DNA from: Cheilinus undulatus | Lineage: Eukaryota; Chordata; Actinopteri; Labriformes; Labridae | Direction of reading: 5' to 3' | Length of the DNA stretch: 64,000 bases | Assembly: GCF_018320785.1 (NCBI RefSeq) | Contig: NC_054886.1 | Location: 35,028,110-35,092,109 of the forward strand | Part shown: positions 1,714 to 64,000 of the stretch, in pieces | Position numbering within the stretch: position 1 is the stretch's first letter | How the letters are laid out: each line of letters begins with the position of its first letter | Notes under the pieces: model-generated | Seen by the model: the letters and a program-made list of their open reading frames with translations, nothing else | Told to the model about the DNA's origin: nothing | The model's database searches: none | Program-made: the position numbers and the translations under genes

Positions 1714-8706
<6,993 letters not shown>

Positions 8707-38380: not shown

Positions 38381-38470
38381 CATGTCCAAAACCAGATCGT
38401 AGCGGAACCTTCGGTCCGGATGATTTCCACACGGACAACAATAACGGGGTCTGTGCGGCGCAGTGAAAAG
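38381..38470 (+). promoter_or_regulatory. Promoter-proximal/5'UTR block shared by the two FiNZ-ZNF genes
   Basis: The 75-90 bp before the ATG contain GTAGCGGAACCTTCGGTCCG and GATGATTTCCACACGGACA. A matching block (GTAGCGGAACCCTTGCTGCG, GATGTTTTCCACTCGGACA) precedes the ATG at 53551. Conservation outside the coding exon shows that the duplication included upstream DNA. The start site is not known. Confidence 0.6.
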
Positions 38471-41400
38471 ATGGAAGGCGTTAACGTGATGTTTGGTTCT
38501 CCGGTAAACTTCATGGACTACCAGCTTTCCAAGGCAGAGATCCTGAGGGGAATCGTTACCGAGAAGCTGACCACGGCAGCGCGGGAGATCTTCGCGGTGG
38601 TCGAGAGAACCGTAGCCGGATATGAGGAGGAGGCTGCGGGTCTGAGGCAGGAGATCGACCGTCAGAGGATCCAGCTGGAGGCTATTCTTCAGCCCAGAGT
38701 CTCTCTCAGCAGGATAGGTGAACTAAAAACCTGATGGTCCGACTTAATCCAGATCTAAACTAGAGGACAGGGACTCAGGAAGCGGATCTGTGCTGCTGAA
38801 GCCTCCTCAGATGGATTTCTTTATTTAGATGATCAATAAACGGTTTATTTAACGGAGATAGCAGCGGTAAACACGTGCTCAGTGTTTTCTCTTTTTATTA
38901 CAGGCTGCTTTTCTTTAGACATTTAACCATTAAAAACGAGCCAAACTAATGCAGTTAACATTCATCAATAAGTTCACACGGTGACCAGAGCCACAAAATA
39001 GTAAGACACATTTTTAAAAAATCTCAATTCTGAAATCAAAGTAATAATTCGGACACTTTCCCTTCAAAATTCTGACTTAAATCCAACAATTGTTAATCAA
39101 ACGTGCTGACTTTAAACTCAGAATTCCTGAGTTAATCCTAAAATTTGGTCTTCAGTCCCAGAAGTATGAAATCAATCTCAAATGTATGAGTAAAACGCTT
39201 CAATCTCAGACTTCCAGAGTTAATCTCAAAATTTTTACTGTAATTCCATTTTTCTAAAGTTGATTGAAGAATTTTGACTTCGTTTTCAGAATTCTTGAAC
39301 TACAACTCTTTTCTATTGTCTTGAAATTCCAAAATTAATCCCAAAATTTTGACGTTATGCCCTGAATCCTTGAACAGAGTTTTCCAATTTAACCTATATA
39401 ATTCCAAAGTAAATTCCAGAATTGGAATTTTATTCTCAGAACTCTTGAACAAGTATCGACAGGGATCACAGAATTCTCACTTTTTTCTCAAAATTTTGAC
39501 TTTAAGATAAGAATTTTACTCAAAACTTATGACTCTGGAAAGCTGATTCTAATCCAAGAATTTAATCTCAGAATTCATGAACATAAATTCTGACTGTAAT
39601 TTCATAATTTCAACATTGTTTTCTCAGAACTGTGGCTTTAATCCCAGAATTCTGAGTTGAATCTCAAAATTCCAACGCTTATCCCAGAACTATGACTTAA
39701 ATCCAAGAAATCCAAAGCCAATCCCAGATTTCTGACTTTGATTCCAGAATTCTTGAACTAAAGTTCTGATTTTAATTTCAGAATGCCAACGTTAATTTTA
39801 GAATTCTGAATTTAATCTAGAATTCCAAAGTTAAACCCAGAATTCTGACTTTTTTCCTAGAATGTTGACTTTAGTCCTAAAATTCTGGCTTTAACCCAAG
39901 AATTCCAAGACTAATTCTGGATTTCTGACTTTGAATCCAGAATTCTCAACAGAAGTTCTAATTTTAATCTCAGAATGCCAACTTTAATTTAAAAGTTTAA
40001 ACTGAAAAAATCTTGGACAGATATTCTGATTTTAATCTCAGAATTCCAAAGTTAAACCCAGATTTTGGACTTTAATCTCAGAATGCGAACTGTAATCTTA
40101 GAATTATAACTTTAATCCAAGAATTCCAAAGCTAATCCATGAATTCTGACTAATTATTTTGACTCTAATCACAGAATTTATGTTTTTCCTCAGAATTCTG
40201 TCTTTACCTGATCCTGTCAAAAAACTGGACTGTTTTTTAGCTAATGTTCCTTTTAGACGTGTGCTGGAGTTTTTGTCGGCAGTGTTCAAAGGATTCTGTG
40301 AATCAATAAAATGACAAACATTGTCTTTATGGGGTAAAGGTAAAAACATCTCAAAAATGGGCGAGCATAATAAGGAGTAGTTGAACTAATGAGAAGACAG
40401 AGAACAGCTGGAATCTGATGAACTCCTTTATTCCTGATCCAGATGACCGGGAATATGAAGAGGAGGTGGACTGGGAAGGGGACCTATCAGAGGACGAGGA
40501 GACTCGTATGTTTTATAGATTTACTTCAGGATCATTTATCATTCCTCACACACTAGTACCCTCGGTATTTTAAGTTTTCTAACACTGGGCTCTTTCTTCC
40601 TCAGAGGGGGAAAACTCCCGGAGCATCTTTGGTCCTGCTGAGTTTGCTGCTGGGTCGTTGGGACCTTTATATCACGATGGAACGAGGGACCCGGATTATA
40701 AGACAGCAAATACGAAGTTAGAGTGAAGATGGGGAGTCAGAATCAAAGATCTGATTAAAAGTTAGAGATTTTCTTTGAATTGATTTTGTTTTTTCCTGCA
40801 GACCTCCACCGTTGAAGAGGAGGAACAGGAAGAGAGCTTCTCTAAACATCCGAGTCTGTCTGTTGCAGGACTCCAAGATCAACATACTGAAAAGAGGCGG
40901 TAAGAGAGCGACAGCTCGACTCTGTGACCTTCAGCAATGCAGCCATGCAGACTCTTCCAGAAAGCATTTATGTAAAGAGTTTGTGGTGACTTTATTGACA
41001 TAACTGTTTTATTTTAGCTCTAAAGTCCCAGTTAAAGGAGGTGAAGTGTCCTCCAGGCCTGCAGGAGGCAGACTTCCTGAACCTGCTGAGGTCCTCCTTC
41101 CCTCAGTTAACAGGAGAGTTTGAAACCTTCACTATGGACTCCACCAGGAGACTGACACAGCTGAACCTGCAGACACTAACACCAGAGGTGATCGAAAGGT
41201 CCATCAAATCCACGGGGAAAGGCAGATCTGCTCTCTACATCCGAGTCAAGGTAAAACATCCTCTTATTCCAGGTGAGAGCAGCTTTTGTGATGCTATAGT
41301 TGTGGTAGGGCTCCACTCGGCAGGACTTTACTTGGTTTTTGCACCACTGCAATGTAGACTGCCTTCTCAACAGAGCTGTCATAGCATGGCTGCACAAAAC

Positions 41401-44400
41401 CACGGTTCCCATCGCAACAGTGGAGGACCTGGAGGTGATAGTGTACCTGCTTCTTGGTCTGCTGCTTTTCATGACTGCAGGAGACGGGTTTTTACCAGGG
41501 CCGGCTGCAGGTAGTGAGACAAAACACTACTGAAGAGAACAGAAGAGTTTGGAAAGTTCTACAGCAGTACGGAGACAGCAAGAGGGTTTCAGTCAGGACC
41601 ACTTTGCCGAGACACACGATTTGCATTTATAAATATTGTTCTTAACAGCAGTTATGAATCTGCACTTTTTGCTGTTATTTATATTTGGCAGTGTAGCTGT
41701 TCTGGGATCCTCGTGTCTACTAGGAAGGCCTGAGGCAGGGAGGGGAGACGCAGAACAGAGCAACCATCAGTGACAACAGAGTGGCACTGATGAAGTCAGA
41801 AGCAGAATGAAGGAGGAGCTGGGGTGGAGGAGGGCAGACTAGGGCAGCTTTAGAAGAGCAGCATGACTGCGATTAGCCAATTGCATGCTGAGAAATGAAT
41901 CAGCTGGCTGTCCGCTGATGAGGGCCTGATCAGATAAGCTGATCTCCGTTATATTACAGCGCTTGACTTCTTTTCCTGCCAGAACTGAAGCTATATGCTC
42001 AGTTTGATTCCTGTGTAGGACAGTCCTCCCTTGTGCCGGTGCCCCCTGGCCGCTAAGTGTTTGGCAGTATCTTGTGTAGGGATGTCACGATTACAGATTT
42101 TCTTGGTGCGATTATTGTCAGAGAAATAATTGCAATTTCACGATTATCATGATTATTTTTCCATTAATTAATTTCACACTACCATGAATAAGTAAAATCA
42201 TATGAACGTTCCTTATAGGTCTTGTATTTTAATTTATTTCCATCTTAGGATGCTCTCATAAAAAAATGATATATCAACAATGTAAAGTAACTAATAATTA
42301 CCAGAATAATTATAATAATCCCATTTGGATGGACCACTCGAGTGGTCTTCGCTGAGTAGTGTTTGAGTTAAAAAGCTGTAATTCAGTCGATCTCATCTAT
42401 TTTATATCCCTCAAATATAATATCCCTCATATTCACAACTGTATTTATTAAAGTTTCTCGTAAAAAACTAAATTTTCCCATTTTTATGTGGCAGTTGAAC
42501 ACATCATAACATATAGACTACAGTTGTCTAATTTACTGAGGTTACCTGAACGCATCATATTTTCCGTCTTCAGCTCATAAAGTTTGCTACTTAACTTCAA
42601 TTCTTCCGATTCCACCGCAGATTTCTACACTGGATTGATATTGTTAACAAACAGGACTGTCTCAGAGTTTTGGAGCATTTATCAGCATTTATCTGAGCAG
42701 CTGAAGAAGAAAACTGTCCTGAAGCAGCTGAAGTGAGGGATATGAGCCTGTTACTCCCAGCACTGAAGGATAACGTATGATAGCATGCGGCTCACAGGCA
42801 GCGTCTTTTTTCCTCAAGCCGACAGTTTAAGGTACATTCTTGTTTGATGTGATGCATGACACTTCTAGTTTATGTTCCCCTTGAAAGAACTGATGTATGT
42901 TTTAACACCAGTCTTATCTTACAATGACATGATGTCACAGAGCCTGTGAGACTCGATAGCAGTATCGATAAGCTAAAACGTTACTGATTTGGGGTATTTC
43001 AAAAACACAGAACCGGGTCCTTATGGACCCGTGTTTTGATCCCCATCCCTTACATTGACATGACTAAACCCAGTTACTATTTACCTTTATGTTGGTGTAC
43101 AACGCCGGGTTGTTATCCCGGAGGTTCTGAAGTATTGCCTGATTTCACTGCAACTTTTTTGTGGTATGTTTTAAATTTAGGCTGGCCGTCTTCCACAATG
43201 ACACCCTGGTCATTTGTTTTGTATTCAAAAAATTTCTCACGGCTGACTCCAACCATTTATTTGGAGGGAACAGCTCTTCCTCTTCCATGCTGTAGCGTGT
43301 TTGGGACTGTGACACGCCTCCGCCTGCAACTGCAAGAAGCAACAGGAGGCGGTGACACGCGGATGTCGTGTAACTTTGTTTTTGTTCCGTTGTCGTACCA
43401 ATATGGTTCCCGGCATAATCTTTTCTGGAAATTGAAGGTATTTAGGAAATGTTACGATTAACTAATCGTAAAGTTTAATACCGCAGTTAATCGTGAAAAT
43501 GGGTAATCGTGCCATCCCTAATCTTGATGTCACATTTCAGCATCAGTTGGTGATTTGGAATTGGACACACCTCTCTATAGAAGGCCTCACAGCTGACAAT
43601 GGTATCAGAGCAGAAACCAAGCCATGAGGTCGAAGGAACTGCTTGCAAAGCTCAAGGACAGGATTGTTGACATGTACAGATCTGGGGAAGGCTAAAGAAT
43701 AATTTCTGCTGCTCTGAAGGTTCCTGAGAGCACAGTAGCCTCCAGAATTCTCACATGAAGAACCAACTAGAGCTGGTCTCCTGGCCAAACTGAGCAATCA
43801 CGATAGAAGGGTCTTAGTGAGAGAGGAGACCAAGAACCTGATGATCATGCTGACTGAGCTCCAGAGATCCTGTGTGGAGATGGAACAAAGTTCCAGAAGG
43901 ACAACCATCTCTGCAGACCTCCACTGATCTGGGCTGGCAGAGTGGCTAGACGGAAGACTCTCTGTCTGTCAATTTTTGCAAAAATCTCCATGTTAAAGCC
44001 AATTCGATCAATTTAATCTACCACAGAATCCTAAACTATAATGAACTAGTGTTTCTGAGAGACATGAATGAACTTGATTTGCTGGTTTTAAAGCCAACTG
44101 TTGATTTGTTTCAGGGAAAAGATGAACCCCTGAGCAGTCCGGAGCAACTTTCCCAAGCATTGATCACAGACAACACCATCGATGACTCAGGAAGTGAAGA
44201 GAAACCACATGTAAGGTAAGTCAAAACAGACTGGTCTTAAGGCTAAATGTGCCAGAAACAAACATTTTGATTGTACTGGAGGTGAAAGTGTTTAATTTAG
44301 GAACTTCTTTTTTTTCAGCTTCACTTCCCCTCACAGTCCTGAGGGTGAGGAGGAGAGAAACCAATCAGAACATCTCTCTGAAAACCTGGGATGGCAACAG

Positions 44401-45648
44401 CAAACAGAGGAAGACGAGGAACAAGGACTATCTGAAGACCTTAGTGCTCTTTATTCCGACAACTCTGCAGGCGACAGCGGAGATGACGATGACGAAGATG
44501 AAGAGTGGAAGCCAAACCAGGACAAAGATCTTAAAGAGACAACGGATAAACCGCAGACGAAACGAGTCACAGCAAAGAGAAGGAAACAGATCCAGTCGAC
44601 TGATGAGAGCGGCGCCCCTTTGTCCTGTAAAGTCTGCAAAGCTCTGACTGGAACAAAGAATATATTGATCAAACACTCCTGGTGTCACGTGGAGGATCCT
44701 GAGAGACTTTGTGGAGTTTGTGGAGAACAGTCAGGGTCTCAAGAAGAGCTGATGAATCATCTCGAAAGCCACAAGAAAACCTACAGCTGTGAAGTCTGTG
44801 GAAAGAAATTCCTCTCTAATTTTGGTCTTCAGACCCACGCTCCTCTGCACACCGGAGAGAAACCCTTCAAATGCGACATCTGCAGTAAGGCGTTTGTGTT
44901 TAGGAACGCGCTGAGACAACATAAGCTGGAACATGTGGAGGATAAACCGTACAAGTGTGACGTCTGCAGTAAATCTTTTGCCTTGAAAGCGAAGCTAAAG
45001 ATTCACAGCAGGACGCACACAGGTGAAAAGCCGTTCACCTGTGAGTTGTGCGGCAAATCTTTCTCCGACAGCGGGCCTTTAGCGCGCCACAAGTTGACTC
45101 ACTTCGGGGAAAAGCGGTTTGGCTGTCAGGTTTGTGGGAGGCATTTCTTCACTCCCCGAGAAGTGAATTTCCACATGAGGATTCACACAGTCAGAGAAAA
45201 ACCGTTCCTCTGTGATATTTGCTGCAAAAGTTTCTACACACAAGGCCACTTAAATGAACACCTGAAAATACACAGCAATAAGAAGTTCAAGTGCAGCGTG
45301 TGTGGAAAGGACTTGTCATCAAAAGGAGGTCTGAGAAGGCACATGATGGTCCATACCGGGGACAGACCCTACAAATGCTTGGAGTGTGGACGGACCTACA
45401 CTTCTAGCAGCCACCTCCGCTTCCATCTGAAACTCCACTTAGGGATCAAGTCGTTCGTCTGTCAGGTTTGTGGGAAGGCGTTCCTTCGTAAAGAAGCCCT
45501 GAACAACCACATGAGGACCCATGATGGAGAGAAACCACACAAGTGCACCATTTGTGGAAGAGGGTTCACTCAGAGTCACTCCATGAAAACGCACATGAAG
45601 AGGCATCAGGCGGTAGAAAAGGCAGCAGTGGATGTACTGATGGACTAA
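38471..45648 (+). CDS. FiNZ-type C2H2 zinc-finger protein, complete, 7 exons (copy 1)
   Basis: Exons 38471-38717, 40443-40505, 40605-40716, 40802-40899, 41018-41250, 44115-44215 and 44319-45648 join in frame to 2184 nt, 727 aa. Residues 20-75 are a FiNZ-like N-terminal helix pair (EKLTTAAREIFAVVERTVAG, YEEEAAGLRQEIDRQR). Residues 83-140 are acidic. Residues 141-251 form a conserved unnamed domain (NIRVCLLQDSKINILKRG to GKGRSALYIRVK). Residues 285-385 are a strongly acidic then basic linker. Residues 416-714 carry eleven C2H2 fingers with TGEKP-type linkers, preceded by one atypical finger (C388, C391, H404, H408). Expected role: sequence-specific nuclear DNA binding; FiNZ zinc-finger genes are regarded as fish lineage-expanded candidates for transposon repression. 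The donor of exon 3 (GTTAGA) is non-consensus, but its position is repeated in copy 2. AATAAA at 46133-46138 is a candidate end. The exact gene name is unknown. Confidence 0.9.
39020..40210. repeat. Degenerate AGAATTC-rich repeat filling FiNZ-ZNF1 intron 1
   Basis: About 1.2 kb of roughly 20-40-bp degenerate units with CAGAATTCTGACTTTAATC, CAGAATTCCAAAGTTAA and similar. It looks like an old, eroded version of the AGTCAGAATTCTGA minisatellites at 10.0 and 23.9 kb. Confidence 0.75.
42077..43520. mobile_element. Non-autonomous hAT-type element in FiNZ-ZNF1 intron 5
   Basis: Ends TAGGGATGTCACGATTA (42077) and TAATCGTGCCATCCCTA (to 43520) are inverted repeats differing at one position. The flanking 8-mers ATCTTGTG and ATCTTGAT agree at 6 of 8. 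The 1.4-kb interior has one 141-codon open frame (43036-43461) without a recognisable domain, and no transposase. Confidence 0.8.
43540..43960 (+). mobile_element. Tc1-type transposase N-terminal relic
   Basis: Sequence such as AAGGACAGGATTGTTGACAT and GGTTCCTGAGAGCACAGTAG translates to a Tc1 DNA-binding-domain-like stretch (LLAKLKDRIVDMYRSGEG, stop, then a helix-turn-helix remnant). Later, CAACCATCTCTGCAGACCTC is another Tc1-family phrase. Stops and frameshifts are present. It directly follows the hAT element. Confidence 0.6.
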
Positions 45649-53471: not shown

Positions 53472-53550
53472 AATTCAAGCAGAGCTGTAGCGGAACCCTT
53501 GCTGCGGATGTTTTCCACTCGGACATTTATGAGCGTGCGCATCCTAAAAA
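53472..53550 (+). promoter_or_regulatory. Duplicated FiNZ-ZNF promoter-proximal/5'UTR block
   Basis: AGCTGTAGCGGAACCCTTGC and GATGTTTTCCACTCGGACA correspond to the block before the ATG of copy 1. This supports 53551 as a genuine duplicated first exon. Confidence 0.55.
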
Positions 53551-56500
53551 ATGGAAGGGGTAAACGTAATGTTTGGCACCCAGGTGGACTTCATGGAGTA
53601 CGAGCTGTCTAAAGCGGAGATACTGAGAGGAATCGTTACCGAGAAGCTGTCGACGGCAGCGCGGGAGATCTTCGCGGTGGTCGAGAGAACCGTGGCCGGG
53701 TATGAGGAGGAGGCGGCGGGTACGAGGCAGGAGATCGACCGGCCTAGAGTCATTCTCTGTCGGATAGGTGGTGGGTAACTGATGCTGTGGACCAAACACA
53801 ACATAAAACCTGATCATGTTAAAGATCTAAACAAAGAGAAGGCCTACATCCGATAAAGACAATTACCGGGATAATTCCAGTTTAACTGAAACATCACCTC
53901 CGCCTCCTCTGACTCTAAATAATGAGAATCCTCCATTTTCTGTCCCGATTTTAATCGATACTCCCCCCATTTCTAATGATCGATATGCCAGTGAATTCAG
54001 TGTTGATGGGACGGTTTTTTAATTTCTGTCTTTTAGTAGCTTTCCCCCCATGAATCCAAAGAGAAACCCCAGACTAATGAAGATGCTCCCAGTGCATGTT
54101 AGGAGATGATAATGGTTGATCATGCTCCAGTTAGGGTAAACTGGTCTGAAACCATTTTCTCTGGTTTAACTGGGGGACTGGGACAGCTTATTTAATCACT
54201 CGTGATGTGGGAAACTGATTCAGTTAGTTTAAATATTTTTGATTCATTGAGTTCAGCAGTGTGAAAAGTTAAAGCTTCATTGAACCTGTTTTACAGAAGA
54301 AAGCACTGTTTTCTAGGAATGCTGTAAATATCAGCATAATGTTGGTATAAGGAGATGTCAGTCTATATCAGCTGTAAATATCAGTCTATGTCAGCTGTAA
54401 ATATCAGTCTATATCAGCTGTAAATATCAGTCTGTATCAGCAGTAAATATCAGTCTATATCAGCTGTAAATATCAGTCTGTATCAGCTGTAAATATCAGT
54501 CTATATCAGCTGTAAATATCAGTCTATGTCAGCTGTAAATATCAGTCTATATCAGCTGTAAATATCAGTCTGTATCAGCAGTAAATATCAGTCTATATCA
54601 GCTGTAAATATCAGTCTGTATCAGCTTTAAATATCAGTCTATATCAGCTGTAAATATCAGTCTATATCGGCTGTAAATATCAGTCTATATCAGCTGTAAA
54701 TATCAGTCTATATCGGCTGTAAATATCAGTCTATATCAGCTGTAAATATCAGTCTATATTGGCTGTAAAAATCAGTCTATATCAGCCGTAAATATCAGTG
54801 TATATCAGCAGTAAATATCAGTCTGTATCAGCTGTAAATATCAGTCTATATCAGCTGTAAATATCAGTCTATATTTGCAGTAAATATCAGTCTATATCAG
54901 CTGTAAAAATCAGTCTATATCAGCAGTAAATATCAGTGTATATCAGCAGTTAATATCAGTCTATATCAGCTGTAAATATCAGTCTATATTTGCAGTAAAT
55001 ATCAGTCTATATCAGCTGTAAAAATCAGTCTATATCAGCAGTAAATATCAGTCTATATCAGCAGTAAATATCAGTCTGTATCAGCTGTAAATATCAGTCT
55101 ATGTCAGCTGTAAATATCAGTCTATATCAGCAGTAAATATCAGTCTGTATCAGCTGTAAATATCAGTCTATATCAGCTGTAAATATCAGTCTGTATCAGC
55201 TGTAAAAATCAGTCTATGTCAGCTGTAAATATCAGTCTATATCAGCTGTAAATATCAGTCTGTATCAGCTGTAAAAATCAGTCTATGTCAGCTGTAAATA
55301 TCAGTCTATATCAGCTGTAAATATCAGTCTATATCAGCTGTAAATATCAGTCTATATCAGCTGTAAAAATCAGTCTATATCAGCAGTAAATATCAGTCTA
55401 TATCAGCAGTAAATATCAGTCTGTATCAGCTGTAAATATCAGTCTATATCAGCTGTAAATATCAGTCTATATTTGCAGTAAATATCAGTCTATATCGGCT
55501 GTAAATATCAGTCTATATCGGCAGTAAATATCAGTCTATATCAGCTGTAAATATCAGTCTATATCGGCTGTAAATATCAGTCTATATCAGCTGTAAAAAT
55601 CAGTCTATATCAGCAGTAAATATCAGTGTATATCAGCTGTAAAAATCAGTCTATATCAGCTGTAAAAATCAGTCTATATCGGCTGTAAAAATCAGTCTGT
55701 CTCAGCTGTAAATATCAGTCTATATCAGCTGTAAATATCAGTCTATATCAGCTGTAAATATCAGTCTATATCAGCTGTAAATATCAGTCTATTTGAGCTG
55801 TAAAAATCAGTCTATATCGGCTGTAAAAATCAGTCTGTCTCAGCTGTAAAAATCAGTATGTATCAGCTGTAAAAATCAGTCTATATCGGCTGTACATATC
55901 AGTTTATATCAGCTTTTAATATCAGTCTATATCAGCTGTAAATATCAGTCTATATCGGCTGTACATATCAGTTTATATCAGCTTTAAATATCAGTCTATA
56001 TCGGCTGTAAATATCAGTCTATATCAGCTGTAAATATCAGTCTATATCGGCTGTAAATAGTCCATCTCAGCTGTAAATATCAGTCTATATTTGCTGTAAA
56101 TATCAGTCTATATCGGCTGTAAAAATCAGTCTATATCAGCTGTAAATATCAGTCTGTATCAGCTGTAAATATCAGTCTATCTCAGCTGTAAATATCAATC
56201 TATATCGGCTGTAAAAATCAGTCTATCTCAGCTGTAAATATCAGTCTCTCTCAGCTGTAAATATCAGTCTATATCAGCTGTAAATATCAGTCTATCTCAG
56301 CTGTAAATATCAGTCTATCTCAACTGTAAATATCAGTCTCTCTCAGCTGTAAATATCAGACTTTATAAGCTGTAAATATAAGTCTAGATCAGCTGTAAAA
56401 ACCAGTCTACATCAGCTGTAAAAAAATAGTCTATATCAGCTGTAAATATCAGTCTATTTGAGCTGTAAAAATCAGTCTATATCGGCTGTAAAAATCAGTC

Positions 56501-59500
56501 TGTCTCAGCTGTAAAAATCAGTCTATATCGTCTGTAAACATCAGTCTGTCTCAGCTGTAAAAATCAGTCTATATCGGCTGTAAACATCAGTCTATTTCAG
56601 CTGTAAATATCAGTCTATATCAGCTGTAAAAATCCGTCTATATCAGCTGTAAACATCAGTCTATAAATTGGCTGTAAACATCAGTCTGTCTCAGCTGTAA
56701 AAATTAGTCTATATCGGCTGTAAAAATCAGTCTATATCAGCTGTAAAAATCAGTCTATATCAGCTGTAAATATCAGTCTATATATTGGCTGTAAAAATCC
56801 GTCTATATCAGTTTTAAAAATCAGTCTATCTCAGCTGTAAATATCAGTCTATATCAGCTGTAAATATCAGTCTATATCAGCTGTAAATATCAGTCTCTCT
56901 CAGCTGTAAATATCAGTCTATATCAGTTTGAAATATCAGTCTATATCAGTTTGAAATATCAGTCTTCATCAGCTGTAAATATCAGTCTATATCAGTTTGA
57001 AATATCAGTCTTCATCAGCTGTAAATATCAGTCTATATCAGCTGTAAATATCAGTCTATTTAGCCATAAATATCAGTCTTTATCAGTTTTAAATATCAGT
57101 CTATATCAGCCGTAAATATCAGTCTATATCAGCTGTAAATATCAATCTATATCAGCTTTTAATATCAGTCTATATCAGTCGTAAATATTAGTCTATATCA
57201 GTTTGAAATATCAGTCTATATCAGTTATAAATATTAGTCTATATCAGCCGTAAATATTAGTTTATATCAGTTTGAAATATCAGTCTATATCAGTTTTAAA
57301 TATCAGTCTATATCAGCTGTAAATATCAATCAAATCAGCTATAAAAATCAGTCTATATCAGCTGTAAATATCAGTCTATATCAGCTGTAAATATCAGTCT
57401 ATATCAGTTTGAAATATCAGTCTATATTAGCTGTTAATATAAGTTTCTATCTGCTGTAAACATCTGGCTTAGGCTTGGTATCGGCACTCGACCCTGATAC
57501 TGCTATCAGAGCTTCACTAGCACAGGCATGAGTTTCTCCCTCCATTATCTTCTGCTCATCTGGGGACTAGCGGTGGTAGCAGCAGGTTAAACAAGTTGAC
57601 CCAGGCATCCTTCTTCAGGTGTCAAGTATTAACATCCTTTTTAACTCATCCACAGAGATAGTGAGAGGAATCGTTACAGAGAAACTGACAACAGCCGGAT
57701 GGGAGATCTTCGCAGTCGTAGAGAGAACCGTAGCCGGGTATGAGGAGGAGGCGGCGGGTCTGAGGCAGGAGATTGACCGTCAGAGGATCCAGCTGGAGGC
57801 TATTCTTCGTCCTCGGGTCACTCTCTGTAGGATAGGTGAGGATCTGACTCTGTTATCTACATTACACCTAAAGAGCTGATGGTTTCACTGATTTAAAGAA
57901 GGGGTAGACCTTCATTTCACTCAACTATTTTACTTCAGTGCTTCCTGTTTTTGCTACCTAATAGTCAACACTGGCTAAGCCAAAAGTACCCTCAAGGATG
58001 GGAGGTTTTCACAGTCTTGTACAGAAGTAGAAGGGTGTGTCCATGGGTTCTTCAAAGTTTGATGTCTCAAATGGATTAGAATATTTTCTTAAAATAAAAA
58101 GAGCAAATCCACAACCAAACTGATATATCTTTATGGTATACAAATAAACTTGCCTTGCCTTATGTTGCACCAATGCTATTATTACAAGTTTACAGGTCTT
58201 TCCCAGCAGTTGCTTCCATGTTGACCCATTAGTCGCCATGAAACAGGATGTTGTTTTAAATGGAGCTTAAACCACTTGTACTACCTTAGTGGTGCCCCAC
58301 TGAATTAAAAGGATTTTAAGATTTGATAGGTATGTTATCATGCTAAAAAAAAAAAAAAAAAAAAAAAAAAGGTCTCTTGGACCCATATCGCCACCCAAAC
58401 AGGATGTCCGCCTCTTTGATTTTATGTTGACCAGCGCTGGAGAGAGTGGACATTTCCAGCCATCATTGTTAATTTAACTGCTCCTACAAAATGAATTCAA
58501 AACCATGTAACCTTTTTGTAGGGCTAGAATATACCTTGTTCCTTTGGTGGTTCCTCAAAGTTTGTCTTGCCGTGTAACAGGAAGTGACTGTTGTTCGAGC
58601 ATACAGGGTGCAGATTGCGCCAAATTGTCCTTGTGTCATGACAGCTCACTTCCTAACATATCTGTGTCCCAACTGTCAAAGCGCCACCTACTGAGACTCA
58701 GTATGACCTGCATGGCATGATTCAGGTGGTTGCTATAACGTGTGCTGATACGTCCTTTGTAAAAGACATAGCAGTTCCTCACCGTTTAACCCTTCAGTGT
58801 CTGATAGACATCACTGAGACAGCCCATTTTGCAGTTGTGCCACACCCCCAGTGTGTGCCCAACCCTGGCATGTGCAGAAGTGCAAGGTTGGGTTCAGTGC
58901 TGCTTGCTAGTATGAAATGTTTAAATGATCAGACTTGGCCAGAGAAGTCTTTTAAAGTGTCTTAGTTGCTCAAACGTTGGTGATGTTTCGGCACCAAAAT
59001 GTTGCCAACATATTTCTACAACTGGTGCTATGTGCAGCGGTTTGCTTGCACATTTAGATTGAAAGATATGAAAAATATAGGGGTGCGAAGTATCTGAAAA
59101 CAGTTGGTTGAATAAATCTTTGAAACCTTTATTTCTGATCCAGATGAACCTGAATGTGAAGAGGAGGCAGACTGGGAAGGTGGGATATTAGAGGAGGAAG
59201 GCCGGCAGACACGTATGCCTTTTACATTTATTAAGATACCTGCTATACTTTTACTTTTAGTATTTATGTTTTTCTTAGTTTTAGTTGCAGAGTCTGTGTA
59301 TTCCAAAACAAGATTTAAGAGCTCTTTTTTTCTTCTCATTTGTTCAGATGGGAACAATTCGTGGGGAGGACTCAGCAGCCACAATCAGTATAATGAGGAG
59401 TCACTGGCCCCCTCATTTCATGAAGACATTAAGGACCCAGATTTCCAGATGAAAAATACAAGGTTCAAATGTGATGTGAAAAAACTAATGAATATGTCAC

Positions 59501-62500
59501 CCTGAAGGTGAGAAGTTAAATTCTGATTAAAGGATTGTTTGTGATTTTCCTTGATTTAATTTTGTCCTTGCAGACGTCCAGCGTTGAAGAAAAGGGGCAG
59601 GACTACTGCCTTTATAAACCTCAGAGTCTGCCTGCTGCAGGACTCCAACATCAACATTCTTAAAAAAGGCGGTAAGATGGCAACCATAATTCCAGTAACC
59701 AATGGGGATGTTGAGCGTACAGTAACTTGAAAACTTGCACTATTTAGGCAAAGCAACTTTGCAGCTTTCTCTGCTGCTTCGACAGTTTTGCAAGTGGGTG
59801 GAGATTCACGTTTTAGAGTAAGCAGCTTTGTCTGTTTCACATTGTCCCCATCTGGCCTCCGGGTCATACATGGCCTGTGAGGCCATTTGTTCAGTTAGAT
59901 AATAATTCACATGCAGCCTGATTGATGGGAGGGAAATACTTCGACACATTTGCTGTTGTGTCACCATTGATGTTCCCAGTGGCATCATGGCAAAAAAGGA
60001 GAAAAGTTGTCAGAAACAGGCACTGAAGAGGCAGAGCCAGGGTGAGAAATAGTCATCCATATCAGGTTAGGCTGTATGCACGACACCCCTTTATATTCAA
60101 GCTTTCATGAGAGGACAGAAGAGAACCTAGATGAGTTCAGAGAAAGGAGAGGAAACACTGTGAGGAAGAGGACAAGAGAGTCAGAGCCAGGGTGACATGC
60201 CTGCCAGATTATGCTTGCTTGCTCAATGGACCCAGCAAAACCCAGGATCCCTGATTTCCACATTGTGGTATTTCGAAGTAGTTGCTAGCTTCTGTGCCAT
60301 GATACTAAAGAAAGTCCTATCGTCTGTATTCAGGAGGGAAGCCCTGGCTTACCCAAGGACTCCTTCTCCTTGGGAATTGGGCTACTTCTTGGGAATTGGG
60401 CTTCTTCTCCTTGGGAATTTGAATTTCCCTTATTCCACCCCAAGCTTTTGGTATAACTTGTTCGCCCAACGCTGTTCTTTTTTTTTTTTTTTTTTGGAAC
60501 CACATTTACAGAAAGACATCAGTTATCACATTACAGCTTGTCGTGAAATATACATTACTGCACATCTTGCTGAGTCATGTGTCTTCTCTTTTTTTTTTTT
60601 TTTTTTTTACTAACCCAAAAGAAAGTCCATTTTCTAACAATAATGCTCAACTTAAGCCAGAATGGAGAAAGAAACAAAAACATGAACAAAAAGTAAACCC
60701 TAGGAAATCCAAGCAGACAATATTTTGATATTAAACAGATTCAACAGCCTCATTCCTTAGCATCCATCAAATGCGCCAGAAAAGAGCCCCACACGTCAAG
60801 AAAGAGCTCCTCCTTCCCAGCCATTGTGCTCAACAGCTCTAGCCATTCTTTAAAAGTAGACATACTGGATGATTTCCAATGGCACAAGATAATCCTACAG
60901 CCAGTCATCAGGGCCAGACGGCACCACATTTTTTTCCGTTTTGTTATTTCAACATTAACTAGTAGTGTTCTGAAAAGGTATAAAGTGGGATTTTTAATCA
61001 AATTAATGTTAAACAACTTATTCAGGAAAGAAATTACTTTAACCCACATTATTTCTGTCCTGTCACAGTGATATAGCATATGCATCAGGGTTCCTACCTC
61101 TTTTTCACATCTCCAGCATGTGTCACTGTTCCTGAGTTTAGGTCGTGCTAATTTAGAGGGAGACCAATAGGATCTGTTTAAGATCTTATAAAAAATTAGT
61201 TGTGATTGTGCTTCATGTGAATGGCAAAACCATGAAGCAAATATTTGTTTCTAGTTATCATCTGAGATCTCCTGATCCAGGTCTCTCTCCCAACACCTCT
61301 TCAGTCCATCCAGTTTTGGCACTTGTGTGCTTCTAACATATTCATAAAATTTTGATGCTCCCTTAGTTTTCTGTTCCATCTTAAGTGAAATCTCCTGAAT
61401 GCCTGTGTTCTCTTTGAGAATATTTTTTTTTTGCAAGGATGCAATGTCTAATTTGTTAGAACTTCCAAAATTCAGAGTTATCCAACTTTTATTTGTTTTT
61501 AATTTCATCAGATGAGCTGAATCCTGCCTCATCCATCACATCTCTAATGGTGTGAATGCCGGCTCTGATCCATTTATGCCAAACAATATTCTTTTTTATC
61601 TATTAAGAGCTTTTTATTATACCATAAGGAAGATCTAGCTGTTAATGATGGATTAGATTTTGTTATTTGGTGTGCCCTTTGCCAGGATTCTCTAGCAAAG
61701 ACTAGCACAGGGTCTTTAATTGGAGCCGGCCTGTCTGTCTGTGAAAGGAACGTCTCAATAGAAAAGGGTTGTACCAACTGCTGCTCAGTTTTGACCCAAG
61801 AAGGGACCTTAGCTGGAGGAAGGTGTATTTTAGTCAGTTGAAACAGAGAAAAAGATAGATGATACCAATCTATCCTTGGTAAAGATAACCCCCCTCTATC
61901 TTTTGATGCATAAAGAATTGAATAAAGGTTTTTTTCCAGCCCAAATAAACTTTTCTATCATCAGATTATATGTTTTGATAAGTGTGGGAGGAAAGTGTAG
62001 CGGTAACATGCAGCTAACATAGTTAATCTTAGGAGTTATAATCACCCAACACTATTCTTGATAAGTCCCAGAAGAATCTAAATAGGGATGCAGAATATTA
62101 TTGGTCTGGTATCGGTATTGGCAGATATTAGCTAATAAAGGCAAATACCGGTAACAGCAGATATCAAAATTTCTGCCGATATTTACACCCGATATTTTGC
62201 CTGTGTATTTCAGCATATACTGACTGTAAAATTTGCCCGTATATACTAATAAATTAATGCAGTTTTAGGCTTAACCAACAGGCCTCTGTCAGTTGAGGCC
62301 TTTCTCTTTTTTATCCTCATTCTTTAAACTTTGAATTGTTTATTGAACTACTAAAGATTGTTTCCTTGGTTATTCTCAAACCTTAAAGTGTTTTCAAAAG
62401 GACAGAAATTTCTTGTCCAAAAAGCATAATTAAATATCGATATTGATATCGGTATTGGCTATAATGAATCTTTAAATATTGGCAAAAATCCAATATCGTG

Positions 62501-62676: not shown

Positions 62677-63285
62677 TGTTAATAGGGCAAAATCTTTATA
62701 TAAAGCTTTCCTAAAACTTGCGTTTTTCTTTGTTTTTTAGTGTTAAAGTCACAGTTAAAGGAGGTGAGGTGTCCTCGGGGCCTGCAGGAGGCAGAGTTCC
62801 TGGACCTGCTGAAGGTGTCCTTCCCTCAGTTGATGGGAGAGTTTGATGTTTTTACTATAAATCCCACCAGAAGACTGAAACCTCTTAAACTAAAGGTTAT
62901 GACTCCAGAGGAAATTCAAAAGGCTCTCAAGTCCGAGGGGAAAGGAAGATCTGCGCTTTATATACGGCTCAAGGTAGAACACTGTCTTATTTCAGGTGAT
63001 CCAATGCCTGGTACTGTATTTTGACACTATAAGGGAGTCAGTTTACTTTTACCAACATTTATCACCATTGAACTTGATGCCATATCCCCAAGTACTGCAA
63101 AAATGCAACTTATCTTTGTTGCGCGTGAAATGTATAGCTTTCAGTAAATGATTAACAAACTGCTGCTTCAAATGGACATGTTTGAACCTCACAAAAGGAT
63201 AAAATTTAACAGTTTGCTTGTTTTAGGGGCCAAATGAACCCCTGAGCAGCCAGGACACAACAAATGAGGAGAAACCACAGGCAAG
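53551..63285 (+). CDS. Second FiNZ-type zinc-finger gene (copy 2), 3' part not seen in the window
   Basis: Candidate exons: 53551-53767 (ATG plus FiNZ), 57656-57835 (second FiNZ, no ATG), 59144-59212, 59348-59462, 59574-59671, 62741-62973, 63227-63285. All phases agree, giving 971 nt (323 codons plus 2 nt) so far. Exons 4 and 5 have the same lengths (98 and 233 nt) as in copy 1. The first FiNZ exon has a clean 30-nt in-frame deletion (loss of QRIQLEAILR). The second lacks the first 22 codons and starts at an acceptor inside the old exon; it is 180 nt with 1-1 phases, so it can be included or skipped. Residues from exons 4-5 repeat the unnamed middle domain (NLRVCLLQDSNINILKKG, GKGRSALYIRLK). 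The zinc-finger exon expected within about 100 bp is not present by 64000; a Tc1-like insertion lies there instead. Functional status is open. Confidence 0.75.
54341..57462. repeat. 3.1-kb minisatellite of a 23-bp unit between the two FiNZ exons
   Basis: About 135 units of CTATATCAGCTGTAAATATCAGT. A few positions vary in a patterned way: TATATC/TGTATC/TATGTC, CAGC/CGGC/TTGC, and TAAATATC/TAAAAATC. Runs of identical variant order (for example around 54.40-54.50 and 54.52-54.60 kb) show that multi-unit blocks were duplicated. The right end is more degenerate, with TATCAGTTTGAAATATCAGT units. Confidence 0.95.
57836..59143. other. Intron of FiNZ-ZNF2
   Basis: Contains a 26-A run at 58345-58370 and no recognised exon. 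The sequence around 58.58-58.75 kb (CAAAGCGCCACCTACTGAGA) resembles common fish interspersed repeats but has no clear ends. Confidence 0.4.
59672..60477. other. 5' part of FiNZ-ZNF2 intron between the 98-nt and 233-nt exons
   Basis: No exon or identifiable repeat is visible. The same intron in copy 1 is 118 bp; here it has grown to about 3.1 kb by insertion of the elements that follow. Confidence 0.45.
60589..62060 (-). mobile_element. 3'-terminal fragment of an L1/Tx1-like LINE
   Basis: On the minus strand the sequence reads as the C-terminal part of an ORF2 protein. A zinc-knuckle-like block CWRCEKEVGTLMHMLYHCD lies near 61060-61140, then YLFRTLLVNVEITKRKKMW, and further upstream RESWQRAHQITKSNP and LDGLKRCWERDL. 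Frames are interrupted. The 3' end is marked by a T run on the plus strand (60589-60608), the element's poly(A) tail; another T run lies at 60478-60495. Confidence 0.7.
62083..62508. mobile_element. 426-bp non-autonomous hAT MITE with perfect 8-bp target duplication
   Basis: Ends TAGGGATGCAGAATATTATTGG-like at the left and CCAATATCGTGCATCCCTA at the right are inverted. The flanks are a perfect AATCTAAA duplication (62075-62082 and 62509-62516). The interior is AT-rich with TATCGGTATTGGC phrases and no coding capacity. It lies in an intron of FiNZ-ZNF2. Confidence 0.9.
62588..62671. repeat. Poly-A followed by (AT)n microsatellite
   Basis: A run of about 34 A (62588-62621) followed by about 25 AT dinucleotides. 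It ends 70 bp before the acceptor of the 233-nt exon of FiNZ-ZNF2. Length here is prone to polymorphism and assembly error. Confidence 0.9.
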
Positions 63286-63379: not shown

Positions 63380-64000
63380 CAGTGCCTGTTAAAGTATTCA
63401 CCCTGGAATAAAAACCTGTAATGTAAAACAAGTATCTGCATAAATATTCACCCCTTTAAAGTGACTGATTAATTCAACAGAGGTCCAGACAGCTTGTGCT
63501 AGTAGTCTCAGTGTCAGTATCCATGGTTACCATTGCACCATGAGGACTAAATAACACTCAGAGAAGAGGTTATTGAAAAGTCTAAGTCAGGGAATGGAAA
63601 CAAGTCTCTGAACATCCCCAAGAGTTCAGTTAAATCACATGTAAATCTGCCGAGATTAGGCCGTCCTCACAAACTGAGTGAGCGTGCAAGAAGGAGACTA
63701 GTGAGAGAGTCCACCAAGACACCCATGACTACTCTGAAGGAGCTCCAAGCTTCAGCAGCTGAGATGGAGAGACTCTGCAGACAACAACTGTTGGCCGGGT
63801 TCTTCACCAGTCAGAGCTTTATGGGAGAGTGGCAAAGAGAAAGACACTGTTGAAGAAAACTCAGATTCAGTCTGGACTAGAGTTCACCAGAAGGACTGTG
63901 GGAGACTCCATGGTCAAGAGGAAGAAAGTTCTTTGGTCTGATGAGACCAGAATGGAGCTTTGAGACCATCAGACAAGACGCCAAATACTGACGTCACCAC
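63380..64000 (+). mobile_element. Tc1-type element, left end and interior, running off the window
   Basis: It starts CAGTGCCTGTTAAAGTATTC, typical of Tc1-like inverted repeats. It continues through the same sequence as the relic at 6.92-7.40 kb (AGAGTTCAGTTAA, GGCAAAGAGAAAGACACTGT, GTTCTTTGGTCTGATGAGAC). It sits where copy 1 of the FiNZ gene has its 103-bp intron before the finger exon. Stops interrupt any transposase frame. Confidence 0.7.

Follow-up and report, generated by a model that had tools for sequence, protein, structure and literature searches.

A zinc-finger gene of Cheilinus undulatus with two copies of its N-terminal domain exon, and other doubled members of its family

A stretch of 64,000 nucleotides of the Cheilinus undulatus genome (NCBI RefSeq assembly GCF_018320785.1, contig NC_054886.1, here C22; C22:35028110-35092109, called the window below) holds most of a C2H2 zinc-finger gene, gene 2, in which two exons for the same N-terminal domain, 2a and 2b, precede a single set of downstream exons. 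We give a probability of about 0.7 to the reading that gene 2 is a live double-domain gene, whose first exon was partly duplicated within its own locus and whose transcript is predicted to join 2a to 2b. Three further double-domain genes emerged from searches of the genome (1.17 Gb, 46 contigs), so domain doubling recurs there and is not a one-off.

Two domain exons in one intact frame

Our reference for gene 2 is its paralogue gene 1 (38471-45648), which has a single domain copy and, in a single frame, six coding exons followed by a finger exon that matches Pfam zf-C2H2. A first-pass annotation of the window had proposed that two domain exons lie upstream of one downstream set, and both are indeed found where it placed them (Table 1). 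Exon 2a supplies the start of gene 2, an ATG at 53551. The claim that the block before this ATG resembles that of gene 1 also holds, with 81% identity by BLAST between 53477-53741 and gene 1 38390-38661. Exon 2a lacks 30 nt in frame, a ten-codon segment retained in gene 1 and in 2b. Exon 2b matches the gene 1 first exon at 86.6% (57653-57839; E 4e-60) and contains the domain body, from residue 23 through the end, with splice signals on both sides. It is, as described earlier, 180 nt long and phase 1 at both ends, with an AG acceptor and no in-frame ATG. Upstream of it there is an in-frame stop at 57577 and no in-frame ATG between, so using 2b requires an upstream exon with an ATG, and 2a is the only one recognised. 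The 3.9-kb intron separating the two exons is mostly minisatellite and has no C2H2 motif on either strand.

Gene 2 extends beyond the window end, with a finger exon starting near C22:35092633. When 2a, 2b, exons 2 to 6 and the finger exon are joined, they form one intact frame of 749 aa with 12 C2H2 motifs, counted by pattern. The frame survives inclusion or skipping of 2b, in agreement with the annotation, and use of either of two 2a donors.

We scored splice sites with a consensus matrix, a weak judge that also gives -5.0 to the gene 2 exon 3 donor. The 2b acceptor (CACAG) scores 4.69, a value equalled or exceeded by 1.7% of the 4452 AGs in the window, and the 2b donor scores 5.9, attained by 0.29% of its 3787 GTs. 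The donor of 2a is modest and duplicated, which weighs against joint splicing. The annotation had placed it at 53768 (TAG/GTGGTG), which is in frame and phase 1 and scores -0.74; three nucleotides on, 53771 (GTG/GTGGGT) is likewise phase 1 and scores better, at 3.63. Use of a third GT, at 53775, would shift the frame. Aligned with the intron start of 2b, that of 2a gives 16 counted from 53771 and 11 from 53768, whereas MAFFT lines up the first GT of each and inserts a gap, which leaves the position of the 3-nt difference uncertain. We consider 53771 the probable donor.

Weak twin donors and a long intron consisting mostly of minisatellite could favor variable splicing, and skipping 2b leaves the frame intact. 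Exon 2b might then be a cassette exon, with single-domain (2a only) and double-domain isoforms both made, perhaps in different tissues. We think this unlikely, as the only domain copy in a product without 2b would be the one missing ten codons.

Constraint on both domain exons

Both exons look constrained over a long divergence. Nonsynonymous and synonymous divergence (dN and dS) are 0.070 and 0.544 between gene 1 and 2a (dN/dS 0.13), 0.050 and 0.592 between gene 1 and 2b (0.08), and 0.065 and 0.553 between 2a and 2b (0.12). With dS this high (0.54-0.59) and dN this low (0.05-0.07), neither exon resembles an old dead copy. As a rough neutral yardstick, the DNA past the 2a and 2b donors is identical at 50 of 79 positions (Jukes-Cantor distance 0.50). 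The excess of silent change has a binomial P of about 2e-6 for gene 1 against 2b and 8e-6 for gene 1 against 2a at kappa 2, counts that take in changes on the gene 1 side. The respective values are 0.0003 and 0.0011 when CpG transitions are weighted up to 20-fold, and 0.003 and 1.5e-5 when CpG sites are excluded. A neutral simulation with 0.25 substitutions per site, and with indels assumed to occur at 0.1 per substitution, left 2b intact in 1% of runs and 2a in 0.5%. The intact 749-aa frame and this constraint bear out the claim that gene 2 can encode a double-domain protein.

Counts restricted to changes in one copy are less favorable to this reading. Four of the 12 changes found only in 2b within a 126-nt core are nonsynonymous (P 0.004-0.006 unweighted), which is only mildly below the neutral expectation once CpG transitions are weighted (P 0.015-0.04). 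In a comparison of seven sequences, which omits the cluster members g4 (identical to g3 there) and g6div, unique changes are four nonsynonymous to four synonymous (4N:4S) in 2b and 3N:1S in 2a. Unique changes summed over g1, g3, g5, g7 and g8 come to 16N:13S (8:8 in g7 alone). In this respect 2b resembles paralogues with one domain copy, and the case of 2a is less certain. The ten-codon loss in 2a, shared by neither gene 1 nor 2b, makes relaxation of 2a possible, as does its 3N:1S count.

These counts bear on two further explanations. In one, 2b is a decaying fossil exon that is never spliced in, leaving gene 2 with a single domain and with 2a as its start. The 4N:4S ratio would suit such a fossil, as would the absence of an ATG and of a recognizable promoter block, and the CpG context of 10 of the 12 differences unique to 2b in the core. 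We nevertheless judge it quite improbable, since 2b is open and bounded by splice sites, its dN/dS is 0.08-0.12 at a dS of about 0.55-0.59, and its chance of neutral survival is about 1%. In the other, 2a is the relic and 2b the working domain exon, entered from an unrecognized upstream exon or start. The deletion and weak donor of 2a point that way; its promoter block, ATG, open frame and dN/dS of 0.13 against gene 1 point the other, and no in-frame ATG lies ahead of 2b. We regard this explanation as very improbable.

In the double-domain reading that we prefer, transcription of gene 2, a member of a tandem zinc-finger cluster, would begin at the promoter block and ATG of 2a, which would be spliced to 2b and then to the shared downstream exons. 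Exon symmetry allows duplication or skipping without damage to the frame. The predicted product would carry two helical, coiled-coil-like domains in tandem at its N-terminus, followed by the part encoded by the linker exons and by 12 C2H2 fingers. C2H2 fingers bind DNA, as those of gene 2 would be expected to do; the long helix would probably dimerize or recruit a co-factor, and two copies might lengthen the helix, extend or double its binding surface, or raise its valency.

Origin of exon 2b

The first-pass annotation attributed 2b to duplication of a first exon. Both trees, built from a short alignment, pair exon 2a with 2b as sisters (UFBoot 85 for the exon body, 65 with the intron start). 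At non-CpG sites in the core plus tail, 2a and 2b agree against gene 1 seven times, gene 1 and 2a against 2b three times, and gene 1 and 2b against 2a five times.

Raw distances point the other way: 2a differs from gene 1 at 16 of 150 positions and from 2b at 22 of 150, and core dS is 0.255 between 2a and gene 1 against 0.532 between 2a and 2b. Among the 126 core sites, gene 1 differs from 2a at 10 and from 2b at 17, and 2a from 2b at 18. The CpG bias of the 2b-only core differences noted above means that the nearness of 2a to gene 1 may be due in part to CpG change on the 2b side, which would fit a first exon moved out of a CpG-rich start region. Derivation of 2b from gene 2's own first exon is moderately supported, with the trees in its favor and raw distance against a simple sister origin.

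The part of 2b that is homologous to gene 1 and 2a starts at the 2b acceptor. At the DNA level, the flank upstream of 2b showed no reliable likeness to the 5' end of exon 1: 500 and 494 of 500 shuffles reached the score against gene 1, 472 and 431 of 500 that against 2a, and 402, 496, 498, 500 and 239 of 500 those against g3, g4, g5, g8 and g7. A test anchored at the exon start was likewise negative (251 and 400 of 400 shuffles). The in-frame flank peptide VSSINILF resembled MEGVNVMF in a narrow test (12 of 3000 shuffles for gene 1, 36 of 3000 for 2a) and in a wide one (86 and 138 of 2000). With three looser scorings, 29, 96 and 328 of 500 shuffles reached the score against 2a and 488, 397 and 451 of 500 that against gene 1; under the first scoring, 42 of 233 real stretches attained the score against 2a. 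Taken together, these tests give no reliable sign of a former 5' end ahead of 2b.

We considered an intron start common to 2a and 2b only, and rejected it: by eye it is also present in g3, g5 and g8 and absent from gene 1, and it is therefore not counted as evidence that 2a and 2b are sisters. The likeness itself was reached by 0 of 400 shuffles when anchored and 10 of 1000 when local, with another pair of tests at 157 and 5 of 500. None of 800 window donors attained its score, yet 5 of 600 random window pairs did (maximum 68), probably pairs inside minisatellites.

Compared with ten acceptors, that of 2b was closest to gene 1 exon 2 (1 of 200 shuffles), gene 2 exon 2 (7 of 200) and gene 1 exon 3 (15 of 200). 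Unrelated acceptor pairs score as high or higher (up to 8, against 6 for its best match), and four local searches of the neighborhood were negative. We offer purely as a hypothesis that the 2b acceptor came from the exon 2 acceptor, in the manner of the chimeric exons described below.

A large family of helical-domain zinc-finger genes

The window domain starts MEGVNVMFG and continues with the body SKAEILRGIV. The copies in gene 1, 2a and 2b matched no Pfam family up to E=1, KRAB included, and the gene 1 copy had no NCBIfam match. AlphaFold modeled three sequences as one helix over residues 14-81 (mean pLDDT 82.8, pTM 0.49). A sequence search of the PDB gave a single match, at E 0.3, and none of 79 pattern matches in viral contigs was confirmed. 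Family members share an N-terminal helix pattern, MSK..LR..V..(R/K)LT.AA.EIF, and the related domain of g7 on C22, with its start predicted, reads MSKSDILRGIVNEKLTTAAQEI. The domain is 48% identical over 63 residues to a consensus of the family.

Related domains are numerous. The domain query matched at least 146 places in the genome at E<=0.001 (150 scored of 216 candidates), and a query of the type found on contig C24 matched at least 150 (150 scored of 253); the two lists overlap, stop codons interrupt some of the matched places, and both counts are lower bounds. Many of the matches are clustered, on C16, C24, C2, C5, C9, C20 and C22. As judged from its sequence, gene 2 is a member of a large, unnamed family of helical-domain fish zinc-finger genes, with which it shares a related N-terminal domain, a first exon ending in phase 1 and a C2H2 C-terminus. 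Single-copy members have one domain copy, whereas gene 2 has two, the only such gene in the stretches of C22 covered, which leave out 35132000-35157999 and 35178000-35279999.

Two observations on domain arrangement concern other members. Downstream of the g7 first exon, two copies of the exon 5 domain stand about 0.75 kb apart, at C22:35169632 and 35170387 (L014 1633-1857 and 2388-2627), and a second exon type of this cluster thus seems to have been duplicated too. At C5:31166180-31166563 (L058 281-664), the domain is joined directly to C2H2 fingers in one open frame.

Further double-domain genes

From the domain-query list we chose by eye nine close same-strand pairs of matches, leaving out others similarly spaced. 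Finger motifs lay between the two listed matches in all nine, as in neighboring genes. One of these stretches, on C24, had a third domain match, outside the list, between the first exon and the fingers, which revealed C24 gene A. Its exon 1 has an ATG and the domain; exon 2 (399 nt, phase 1 at both ends) fuses an acidic DVPQQ block to a second domain copy; and exon 3 repeats the acidic block ahead of eight fingers, giving 596 aa. Skipping exon 2 keeps the frame, and the BLAST end points describe a tandem duplication of about 1.07 kb.

Six further stretches, picked from the C24-type query for closeness or long open frames, contained two double-domain genes (their neighborhood included), two ordinary neighbors, one single copy (L061) and the C5 domain-finger fusion. 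The first of the two, C24 gene B, adjoins gene A and has the same junction, with 15 fingers in 748 aa. The second, on C9, has a different junction, with eight fingers in 614 aa (620 with another donor). The layout is common to all three: a symmetric phase-1 exon, a second domain copy without its own start (the chimeric exons of C24 gene B and the C9 gene do have internal methionines), an intact frame, and fingers only afterwards. These frames support the reading of gene 2 as a live double-domain gene. Their domain copies, on the other hand, count against that reading: dS between copies is 0.225, 0.092 and 0.291 in C24 A, C24 B and C9, and dN is 0.100, 0.103 and 0.212, a dN/dS of about 0.4-1.1, which, unlike the values for gene 2, points to weak constraint or none.

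The double-domain genes of the window, C24 and C9 go back to at least two separate duplications, and probably to three, because their breakpoints differ. Since the stretches were chosen non-randomly, they yield no frequency of double-domain genes. From these sequences, domain doubling looks like a recurring mode of change in these DNA-binding proteins.

Relation to known proteins

The first-pass annotation called the domain FiNZ, a name we reject. According to PMC10547256, FiNZ is a 28-aa, glutamate-rich domain reported as unique to cyprinids, on one exon upstream of the finger exon; it begins MAFIKEE, as does the decoded morpholino printed there, against MEGVNVMFG...SKAEILRG here. FiNZ genes resemble the family described here in being numerous, clustered C2H2 genes of fish whose N-terminal domain has an exon to itself; unlike them, gene 1 has five further exons between domain and fingers. 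The passages of the FiNZ literature examined contain no mention of two FiNZ copies in one protein.

The nearest published parallel found is human ZNF274, as described in PMC2999557 and PMC11397430. This KRAB zinc-finger protein has two KRAB domains, and in vitro a region with either could bind KAP1, with apparently stronger binding by the first. It shares with gene 2, as predicted from sequence, a doubled N-terminal effector domain in one C2H2 protein, and differs in its domain type, in the SCAN domain between the copies and in being human. PMC9101882 and PMC11603059 propose TRIM33 binding for actinopterygian KRAB-like zinc-finger proteins, which, compared by description only, are also ray-finned fish proteins with an N-terminal domain and C2H2 fingers. 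A search for doubled effector exons over titles and the starts of abstracts, with subscription literature mostly outside it, returned ZNF274 and no fish case. The main text of PMC2443715 does not contain "two KRAB", and strings from the domain matched nothing in literature text.

Zinc-finger families have been studied mostly for changes in their fingers. The finding of four double-domain genes in a single fish genome suggests remodeling of the effector end as well, and the copies in gene 2 look constrained. We raise tentatively, as a doubtful generalization, that the coiled-coil domain of this large family has been doubled repeatedly and independently by unequal exchange of symmetric phase-1 exons, here and perhaps in teleosts at large, and that some doubled forms were selected for a different oligomeric state or co-factor valency. 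If so, structural diversification at the effector end would parallel that known for the fingers. These genes offer a natural test of whether this unnamed fish domain dimerizes or recruits silencing co-factors, and of what two copies do.

Other features of the locus

Table 1. Features of gene 1, gene 2 and related loci. Positions are those of the window unless a contig is named.
Feature	Position	Strand	Basis or remark
First exon of gene 1 (reference paralogue), with its one domain copy	38471..38717	+	frame, homology
Gene 1 exons 2-6 with the finger exon, frame intact	40443..45648	+	frame
Gene 2 5' block (promoter/5'UTR-like)	53477..53550	+	counterpart of block before gene 1 ATG; BLAST, alignment
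Exon 2a: ATG, first domain copy, ten-codon internal deletion, phase 1 end	53551..53770	+	donor probably 53771; 53768 likewise in frame
23-bp minisatellite, ~135 copies, most of the 2a-2b intron	54358..57464	.	Tandem Repeats Finder
2b acceptor region: branch-point-like TTAAC (A at 57632, 24 nt upstream of exon), pyrimidine-rich tract, CACAG	57632..57655	+	motif, score
Exon 2b: second copy of the domain, 180 nt, phase 1 at both ends, in-frame ATG absent	57656..57835	+	BLAST, frame
2b donor TAG/GTGAGG	57836..57841	+	score 5.9
Gene 2 exon 2 (acidic)	59144..59212	+	homology and frame with gene 1
Gene 2 exon 3	59348..59462	+	gene 1/gene 2 comparison
Gene 2 exon 4	59574..59671	+	homology with gene 1
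Gene 2 exon 5, conserved domain without Pfam match	62741..62973	+	homology with gene 1
Gene 2 exon 6	63227..63285	+	zinc-finger exon follows outside window, near C22:35092633
Cluster member g3	C22:35099368
Cluster member g4	C22:35107033
Cluster member g5	C22:35114951
Cluster member g6div	C22:35125980		diverged relative
Cluster member g7	C22:35164741
Cluster member g8	C22:35289646		opposite strand
C24 genes A and B, adjacent double-domain zinc-finger genes (L052, L056, L062, L063)	C24:8407000-8422800	-	596 and 748 aa, common junction
C24 gene B exon 1	C24:8418431-8418260	-	748 aa, 15 fingers
C24 gene B chimeric exon (acidic block plus domain), 399 nt, phase 1/1	C24:8411787-8411389	-	gene A junction
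C9 gene exon 1 (L057, L064)	C9:50866156-50866327	+	614 aa (620 with other donor), 8 fingers
C9 gene chimeric exon, 411 nt	C9:50869293-50869703	+	different junction

The exon 5 domain (41018-41250 in gene 1) is conserved at 68% between the two genes, and the gene 2 copy has no match in Pfam or NCBIfam. Weak Pfam matches below the cut-off mark retroelement and Tc1-like transposase fragments at 60753-61250 (-), 7184-7723 (+) and 63551-63850 (+), the first and last of which sit within gene 2 introns.

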